Shown one piece after another: positions 27,116 through 29,057 of a stretch of DNA of 64,000 nucleotides; the stretch's first letter is position 1; each line of letters begins with the position of its first letter. The notes under the pieces are model-generated. The model ran no database searches and had not been told where the DNA came from. It saw only the letters and a list, made by a program, of their open reading frames with translations. The stretch is taken from NCBI GenBank assembly GCA_017626055.1, contig JAGAJM010000027.1, positions 62,001 through 126,000 on the forward strand, read 5' to 3'. This DNA comes from a bacterium. GTDB lineage: Bacteria; Cyanobacteriota; Vampirovibrionia; Gastranaerophilales; Gastranaerophilaceae. A program made the position numbers and the translations under genes.

Positions 27116-27964
27116 TTATTCATCAGCCAAACCTAATTCAATTTTTAAATTTTCTTCAAAACCCCTGTTAAATCCTAGTTTCACTTTATCATCAGGGGTT
27201 AAATTATTATACATATTCTTTAATTTTGTATAAACAAATTCACTGGTTGGATAAACTTTTTTACCTTTCCAATGAGGATTAAAAAAAGTATTTAAAGCTA
27301 AAATATTTGGAGTTCTGTATTCACCAAACTCACAACCAATATAAAAACCATCTTTATTTATTGTATCAATAAGATCAATAAAGCTTTTCATAAAGATTGA
27401 ACGTTCGTACATAACTGAAAATTCATGCTTTTTCATTGCCGTATCAAATTCATTTTGAGTTAGCCCTAACTTAGATAATTCTTTTTCCTTTTCCTCTCTT
27501 AACTCACTATCAGTTCTAAAGATAGGATTAGCCCAATAATCTGCACTAACAGGATAGCGCATATAATCAATACCATTGGATTTGCAAGCAGATTCTAAGC
27601 CAAAATAACCTACCAAATCTATCACAGTATGGACATTTGATTTTCTAAGTAGTTCCAAATACTGCAAATTTTTAGCTAAAGTTGAACCTCGATATGAATT
27701 TTGCCCTATTTTTTGCAAATTAGGAATAAATACATCATCTAACGACTCAGCGTATCTATTTGAGCGGCCCACTTCTTGACCATATGCAGGTAAAAACTGA
27801 GCATACATGTGAGCTCTAATTGCATCACGAATTTTTGCGTCATGACTAAAACATTCATCATCATCTTGAGTAAAATTATGAACCTGATTATCTTCATAAA
27901 GATCATCAAGCTTGAACCCAAAACTAAAAGAGACATTATTTATTTGAGTAGGTAGAATACGCAT
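27116..27964 (-). CDS. Dual-specificity-phosphatase-like protein with N-terminal FSFGF motif
   Basis: 282 residues. The N-terminus has NNVSFSFGFKL (about 9-19). From about residue 92 the sequence follows the tyrosine/dual-specificity phosphatase layout: YRGSTLAKNLQYLELLRKS, then VHTVIDLVG, GIDYMRYPVS, and the catalytic loop GCEFGEYRT (near 212-220), which matches CxxGxxR(S/T). The usual His before the Cys is Gly here. A general-acid Asp could lie in the Asp-rich loops but I cannot place it. It is convergent with the upstream pair and would act on phosphoproteins or phosphate esters. Confidence 0.7.
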   Translation of the reverse strand: MRILPTQINNVSFSFGFKLDDLYEDNQVHNFTQDDDECFSHDAKIRDAIRAHMYAQFLPAYGQEVGRSNRYAESLDDVFIPNLQKIGQNSYRGSTLAKNLQYLELLRKSNVHTVIDLVGYFGLESACKSNGIDYMRYPVSADYWANPIFRTDSELREEKEKELSKLGLTQNEFDTAMKKHEFSVMYERSIFMKSFIDLIDTINKDGFYIGCEFGEYRTPNILALNTFFNPHWKGKKVYPTSEFVYTKLKNMYNNLTPDDKVKLGFNRGFEENLKIELGLADE

Positions 27965-28045
27965 AATATAGGTAACGCAGCTAAAAAATTATTTTGCCAT
28001 TTATCTGCGAAGTTTGTAGTAAATTTTAACTTTTGTAAACATTAT

Positions 28046-28074
28046 TTGACAAAAGTCATAAAAAAATGTATTCT
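28046..28074 (+). promoter_or_regulatory. Near-consensus promoter for a predicted small RNA
   Basis: TTGACA (28046-28051), exactly 17 bp, TATTCT (28069-28074). It points right, where there is no open frame before the terminator at 28136. Confidence 0.75.
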
Positions 28075-28080
28075 ACTACA

Positions 28081-28168
28081 TATGTAATACATAACTCTTT
28101 ATCTTCTTCTTTTAGTTTAACTACTATGACAGACTAAACCCTCCTCACCCGAGGGTTTTCTATTTTAT
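28081..28168 (+). ncRNA. Predicted small RNA with UC-rich anti-Shine-Dalgarno-like segment
   Basis: Begins about 7 bp after a near-consensus promoter and ends in a strong terminator, giving a transcript of about 85 bases. It has no usable reading frame: the only ATGs are followed at once or within three codons by stops. Between the 5' end and the terminator lies an unpaired pyrimidine tract, tctttatcttcttctttt, complementary to AAGAAG/AGGA-type ribosome-binding sites. This is the layout of a trans-acting regulatory RNA. It stands between the phosphatase-like gene and sdaAA. Confidence 0.6.
28136..28168 (+). terminator. Terminator of the predicted small RNA
   Basis: aaaccctc / gagggttt 8-bp stem, 7-base loop, then TTTTCTATTTTATT on the plus strand. 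On the minus strand it could also assist the end of sdaAA, but the T-run there is poor. Confidence 0.8.
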
Positions 28169-28178
28169 TGGAACAGAT

Positions 28179-29057
28179 TTAGCCAAAAACTCTTTTTTGG
28201 ACTTCTAGACCTGTTTTTGTAGTAGCTAATCCAGCTTGAGAACTTTCTTTAAGGGTTGGTGACATCATAGCACCAGTTTGTTCCATAGCATCTACCACTT
28301 CATCAAATGGAATTTTTGATTCTACACCCGCCAAAGCTAATTCAACCGCAGTAATAGCATGTACCGCTAAAAACGGATTACGTTTCACACAAGGTACTTC
28401 TACAAGCCCAGCAACTGGATCACAAGTCAAACCTAGAATATTCTTAAGCGCCAAAGCTGAAGCGTTAAGAATTTGATCAATTGTACCACCTCTTAACTGA
28501 CAAACCGCAGCTGCTGCCATTGAAGAAGCCACTCCACATTCAGCCTGACAACCTGCCACCGCACCTGCTAAAGCAACTTTTGCTGCAACTATTCTACCAA
28601 TTTCACCAGCAGTAATAAGTGCATCTAATTGAGCCTCAATAGAACAATCACAGTCTTCAGCAACAGATAACATCGCAGCAGGTAAAATTCCACAAGATCC
28701 AGCAGTTGGACAAGCAACAATTCTACCCATTCTGATATTTTCTTCACTTGTTGCAAGTGCATATTTTAAAATCTTTTCAAATGTTCCACCAAACAAAGCT
28801 GGATGCTTTTTAAAACGTTCTTGAATTCTAAAACAGTCTTGTCCACACATACCGCTCATTGAAAGCTCTTTTGAAACTAAACCAACTTGGATAGCTTCTT
28901 TCATCGCAAACAAACTACGATTTGCATGTGCTCTTACTTGTTCAATCTTTAAATCTGAATTTAAAGCCATATTTTCTTGAGCAACTTCATAAATTTCTTT
29001 TCCACGCTCAATACATTCATTTTTTAATTGTTCAAAAGTATTTATATTAGTTTCCAT
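28179..29057 (-). CDS. sdaAA: L-serine dehydratase, alpha subunit (Fe-S)
   Basis: Converts L-serine to pyruvate and ammonia with a [4Fe-4S] cluster. 292 residues. Cluster Cys are visible in MCGQDCFRIQ (about 70-79), ACPTAGSCGILPAAM (about 117-131) and later CDPVAG. It follows the beta-subunit gene by 2 bp. This split two-gene form is typical of Firmicutes and other anaerobes, pointing to serine fermentation. Confidence 0.95.
   Translation of the reverse strand: METNINTFEQLKNECIERGKEIYEVAQENMALNSDLKIEQVRAHANRSLFAMKEAIQVGLVSKELSMSGMCGQDCFRIQERFKKHPALFGGTFEKILKYALATSEENIRMGRIVACPTAGSCGILPAAMLSVAEDCDCSIEAQLDALITAGEIGRIVAAKVALAGAVAGCQAECGVASSMAAAAVCQLRGGTIDQILNASALALKNILGLTCDPVAGLVEVPCVKRNPFLAVHAITAVELALAGVESKIPFDEVVDAMEQTGAMMSPTLKESSQAGLATTKTGLEVQKRVFG

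Follow-up and report, generated by a model that had tools for sequence, protein, structure and literature searches.

A conserved candidate small RNA gene of gut Gastranaerophilales behind a MecI/BlaI-type operator, with gapA as its leading predicted target

SR1 of Bacillus subtilis is a dual-function small RNA, which represses translation by base pairing and also encodes SR1P, which binds GapA (PMC8501984). The locus described here lies in a stretch of 64,000 nucleotides (the window; G000:C19:62001-126000, within a 1.87-Mb genome) and resembles SR1 in that a single-copy candidate small RNA is linked to GAPDH and is accompanied by a short ORF in some lineages. The two differ in that SR1P contacts the GapA protein, whereas the contact predicted here is with the gapA mRNA; reports of SR1 are confined to Bacillus and Geobacillus, the sequences show no relation, and the operator is a different one. 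Moreover, the copy in the window has no ORF and hence lacks the 39-aa SR1P ORF, the small ORFs of its relatives being 45-62 aa long.

RoxS and FsrA bind Shine-Dalgarno sequences through C-rich single-stranded regions and have targets in central metabolism, gapB being lowered on RoxS overexpression (PMC10433868). The unpaired pyrimidine-rich stretch predicted here would likewise face Shine-Dalgarno sequences; instead of three C-rich regions, however, it is a single UC-rich stretch accompanied by a specific ACUACUAU block, with no Rfam match. MalH is a 3'UTR-derived small RNA from the malEFG mRNA (PMC8081044), to which the 12 relatives whose RNA end forms an mRNA 3' end with its terminator can be likened; as a point of difference, the element has its own promoter and no ORF in 15 genomes, including that of the window, and operator and core are kept together around a variable middle. 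SR1, RoxS and MalH may be regarded as analogues in mode of action, with no evidence of relatedness.

On the side of transcriptional control, MecI/BlaI systems govern resistance, and their CopY relatives govern copper-export genes (PMC7253601). The present locus shares with them an operator over the start site that agrees with the consensus at 17 of 18 positions, and a PF03965 repressor encoded in the genome; it departs from them in that a predicted non-coding RNA lies downstream and that the repressor gene is on another contig. Literature searches retrieved no published work on small RNAs of Candidatus Gastranaerophilales, and the best-ranked open-access matches listed include no report of a BlaI/MecI-family repressor driving a small RNA.

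Layout of the locus and its conservation

The promoter and the terminator proposed in the initial annotation, with no reading frame between them, were all found where it had placed them (Table 1). Since the listed ORFs (at least 40 aa) stop at 27964 and resume at 28179, the element occupies an ORF-free gap. The predicted transcription start at about 28081 and the terminator would give a transcript of roughly 80-85 nt, in agreement with the length of about 85 nt initially proposed, and the UC-rich tract described as unpaired is largely so by prediction, with an unpaired probability of 0.67-0.99 in this transcript, the ACUACUAU block being partly paired in the structure model. The Rfam search recommended at the same time returned no family at gathering score; with E up to 1 nothing relevant appeared, the sole weak match lying far under its threshold.

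Table 1. Features of the candidate small RNA locus, in window coordinates
Feature	Position	Strand	Basis or remark
Sigma-70-type promoter, TTGACA-17-TATTCT	28046..28074	+	Sequence; hexamers TTGACA 28046-28051 and TATTCT 28069-28074, 17-nt spacer; same promoter kind in 26/27 loci, window included
Palindromic operator TACTACATATGTAATA, MecI/BlaI-type	28074..28089	.	Overlaps the -10 end and the predicted start site
Predicted small RNA, ORF-less, about 80-85 nt	28081..28164	+	Inferred from promoter and terminator; relatives' model matches
UC-rich stretch CTCTTTATCTTCTTCTTTT	28095..28113	+	Predicted partner the gapA Shine-Dalgarno AAGAAGGAG; alignments A1/A2, unpaired probability, duplex prediction
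Core block ACTACTATGACA	28120..28131	+	Complement of gapA leader TGTTATAGTAGT, 12 bp, one G-U
Intrinsic terminator stem-loop AAACCCTCCTCACCCGAGGGTTT	28136..28158	+	Followed by TCTATTTTAT; T-rich tail to about 28168
sdaA, L-serine dehydratase alpha chain	28179..29057	-	Pfam SDH_alpha 3.3e-70; convergent neighbour

The search of relatives' DNA first matched sdaA, and in several genomes the match extended into the intergenic element. A sequence model built from 11 copies gave convincing scores in 26 genomes of the genus, and a 27th copy, in G033, was spotted by eye and receives weak support from a second model, R2 (E 0.0019). In a pattern scan of named genomes most matches were due to chance, but the contigs that correspond to known copies are, where named, labelled Candidatus Gastranaerophilales or Melainabacteria, which puts the genus in that order. 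Overall, the element is present in 27 of 46 genomes of the same genus (Candidatus Gastranaerophilales), in a single copy per genome, and these genomes keep both the tract and the terminator, on whose conservation among close relatives the initial annotation had made its proposal depend. Weak matches of the first model in G031 and G027 were dismissed on inspection; with the exception of the true copy in G033, the weak R2 matches inspected elsewhere (E 5e-4 to 0.05, including G000:C23:297213) have the look of generic terminators. Outside the genus, weak R1 matches (E about 5e-4) were mostly terminators or coding sequence, with one borderline case, G138 (L127), in which ACTACTTCTGTATAACTACTAAATAA is followed by a GACCTC/GAGGTC terminator and which is possibly a distant copy.

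The most constant part across relatives is ACUACUAU and not the UC tract. Two flavours of the element are found, CTCTTTATCTTCTTCTTTTAGTATAACTACTATGAC, to which the window copy belongs, and ATATCCTTCTTATAACTACTATATGC, together with an intermediate third group that carries an ATPase gene; across flavours, ACTACTAT is near-invariant. An intrinsic terminator follows every copy after 4-14 nt, with a stem that differs between clades and shows two-sided changes at all six modelled pairs (93% of cells paired; 0 of 500 shuffles as good), so that the compensatory changes anticipated in the initial annotation are indeed present in the terminator. In all likelihood the element is a genuine small RNA gene of gut Gastranaerophilales. 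Because it is conserved in this way, a base-pairing RNA, the trans-acting regulator originally proposed, is the best reading of the locus. Its defining control feature, a palindrome that lies over the transcription start as an operator, had been overlooked.

The operator and its candidate repressor

All but one of the 27 loci (26) carry the palindrome TACTAC-N4-GTARTA, or a close variant, on the predicted start, directly behind the TTGACA promoter and the -10 box. The 17/18 agreement of the window palindrome is with the published MecI/BlaI consensus RNATTACAWNTGTARKNT (PMC5341023) and is found on the minus strand at 28073-28090; TACTACNNNNGTARTA has a single occurrence in its own genome, at this locus. 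A PF03965 (Penicillinase_R) repressor was detected in 35 of the 40 genomes searched, and the window genome encodes one (G000:C23:326463-326771; score 66.9 bits, cut-off 22.6), whose nearest matches among proteins of known structure are chains of BlaI and MecI. In most genomes examined, the promoter of the Penicillinase_R gene itself carries a related palindrome, TATTACAATTATAGTA, and a separate AAA+ gene of G014 lies behind TACTATAATTGTAGTA, one base off the repressor's own site. The operator also fronts other genes in relatives, namely those of a protein family of about 95 aa and AAA+ ATPase genes.

Given the consensus match, the Penicillinase_R gene with its related palindrome and the occurrence of the operator at further genes, a BlaI-type repressor is the best candidate for controlling the RNA. 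Two of the 40 genomes searched, G002 and G007, keep the operator, yet no PF03965 gene was found in them, and no BlaR1/MecR1-like gene was noticed among the ORFs listed beside the repressor. LexA was set aside as the regulator, since none of the inspected operator matches fell at a gene recognisable as lexA or recA. The family of about 95 aa (MLVSLMARLNAIS..KISYIA), which has no Pfam match, stands behind the same palindrome type in several genomes of the genus (L101, L102, L105, L113, L116, L117, L129, L130), and no member was detected in the window's genome when one of these proteins served as the query.

The explanation that we favour, and consider rather probable, is a small regulatory RNA that acts in trans and is under the control of a repressor. 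This repressor, a member of the BlaI/MecI family (Penicillinase_R), would probably occupy the start-site palindrome and thereby shut the promoter, and its relief would yield an RNA of about 80 nt, ended at the intrinsic terminator. The single-stranded UC stretch and the ACUACUAU block would then pair with the leader of a target mRNA, the one contact lying upstream of the Shine-Dalgarno and the other directly over it, and this pairing would block translation. With gapA (GAPDH) as the leading target, the expected effect would be a brake on glycolysis.

gapA as the leading candidate target

The core and the UC tract together are complementary, in consistent order, to the gapA leader and its Shine-Dalgarno. 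In the window genome, ACUACUAUGACA (28120-28131) can pair over 12 bp, including one G-U, with UGUUAUAGUAGU of its own gapA, the UC stretch falling over the Shine-Dalgarno. To this extent the anti-ribosome-binding-site function first assigned to the UC tract fits; since the near-invariant part is ACTACTAT beside a short CTTCTT and not the long UC tract, however, generic pairing of that kind would make up half of the predicted contact. Of about 40 genomes, nearly all have a gapA leader of the form CATGTTATAGTAGT..AAGAAGGAG..ATG. When the genus was scanned for sequences complementary to the two blocks together, gapA leaders in 5 genomes were returned besides the RNA genes. Exact TGTYATAGTAGT occurs in its own genome at two places only, the RNA gene and the gapA leader, compared with four occurrences of a reversed control pattern; elsewhere in relatives it falls mostly within genes and does not recur as a leader, except for one leader common to G065 and G027.

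Predicted duplex energies point in the same direction. The duplex with the gapA leader of the same genome reaches -28.6 kcal/mol, whereas the control set of about 74 other leaders averages -16.0 (sd 4.5), and in 22 genomes the z score relative to shuffled leaders was negative in every one (mean -2.9). The blaI leader was discarded as a target, its duplex (-19.3) being ordinary.

Three observations keep the assignment of gapA as the target tentative, and we regard it as a fair possibility and not as the expected outcome. First, pairs of RNA and leader from the same genome were no better than cross-genome pairs (p 0.83). Second, one of the 74 control leaders, that of hydG, pairs equally well (-29.2 kcal/mol); in the window's genome this leader is located in L051 around 2456-2536. 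Third, the gapA motif is equally kept in genomes of the genus in which the RNA was not found (e.g. G009, G003, G006, G024) and is therefore not there for the RNA alone. In addition, a near-palindrome, TACTACTATcgACATGTtATAGTAGTA, extends across the -10 box and start of gapA (L248, G064; other gapA loci L238-L278), its right half being conserved genus-wide while its left half varies; in several genomes the gapA motif is one half of this near-palindrome at the start site, where it may be a DNA operator.

All four of these features would also be compatible with a real small RNA under the same operator whose target is not gapA but other leaders, such as that of hydG, or many Shine-Dalgarno sequences, the gapA motif then being a DNA operator or a leader element that has nothing to do with the RNA. 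Against this stand the match of both conserved RNA blocks to one gapA leader in the right order and the uniqueness of the 12-mer to the gapA leader in its own genome, and we hold this alternative to be unlikely, though the most serious of those considered.

The gapA gene of the window's genome (L268, L279; G000:C8, about 38750) has a TGA where its relatives have GGA, an early glycine codon; this is probably an assembly error, or otherwise a real lesion.

Three builds of the locus and the remaining alternatives

Between a shared operator and a shared RNA end lies a variable middle, which contains no ORF in 15 genomes (window included; operator-to-core distance 29-68 nt), an ORF of 45-62 aa in 8 and an AAA+ ATPase gene of about 500 aa in 4. 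The free-standing RNA described in the initial annotation is accordingly found in 15 of the 27 genomes, whereas in the other 12 the same element forms the 3' end of an mRNA. The small ORF reads roughly MRV..I..IPSDIGK..PVFG..P(I/V)(S/C)DTFVHVLK and is conserved as a protein, with no Pfam match. In these sister lineages, the RNA end on the mRNA of the small protein or the AAA+ ATPase could act as a dual-function or 3'UTR-type RNA.

Such an arrangement might also mean that the ancestral unit was an operator-controlled protein gene (a small protein or AAA+ ATPase), of which the window copy is an ORF-less remnant, the conserved 3' end then only marking where an mRNA ends or is processed and having no role in trans. 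The ORF present between operator and core in 12 of the 27 loci, and its conservation as a protein where it is small, would agree with this. A remnant should decay, however, whereas the 15 ORF-less copies retain operator, core and terminator, and their core is as conserved as that of the ORF-bearing copies. Moreover, in G006 the AAA+ gene comes with the operator and without the core, so that the core is not simply the 3' end signal of that gene. We consider the remnant origin improbable.

Within the favoured reading of a repressor-controlled, trans-acting RNA, the three builds would suggest a cassette whose front, a BlaI-type operator-promoter, and whose back, a GAPDH-targeting small RNA, stay constant around a changing middle (empty, or coding for a small protein or an AAA+ ATPase). 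This would amount to a repressor-driven small RNA that adjusts the flux through glycolysis in gut Melainabacteria and is a dual-function mRNA/small RNA in some lineages, a proposal which we advance as speculative and somewhat doubtful in its full form. If it held, a repressor family known for the control of antibiotic resistance and copper export would drive a glycolysis-setting small RNA, and the lineage would gain a named chain of regulator, small RNA and target in central carbon metabolism. The natural series of no ORF, small ORF and large ORF within one genus opens the conversion between mRNA and small RNA to comparison.

Control of the convergent sdaA by a cis-antisense RNA to its 3' end would be suggested by the convergent arrangement, which is seen in the window and at about 15 of the 27 loci; as the same core lies apart from sdaA at about 12 loci, this neighbourhood is not required for the element, and we regard antisense control as very unlikely. 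An untranscribed chance combination of AT-rich sequences that merely resemble a promoter and a terminator would suit the chance-level outcome of the promoter scan but is scarcely credible, all parts being conserved in 27 genomes in addition to the covariation.

In that consensus scan, 19 promoter-like sites were counted where 18.3 would be expected, and 4 terminator-like sites where the expectation was 1.8. The scan by itself is not significant and does not single out the promoter; the locus rises above chance because promoter, core and terminator are kept in relatives and the terminator covaries. Finally, TAAATTTTAACTTTTGTAAACATTATTTGACA (28020-28054), upstream of and including the -35 box, also matches unrelated places in G012, G013, G022, G026 and G051 and is perhaps an upstream promoter element.
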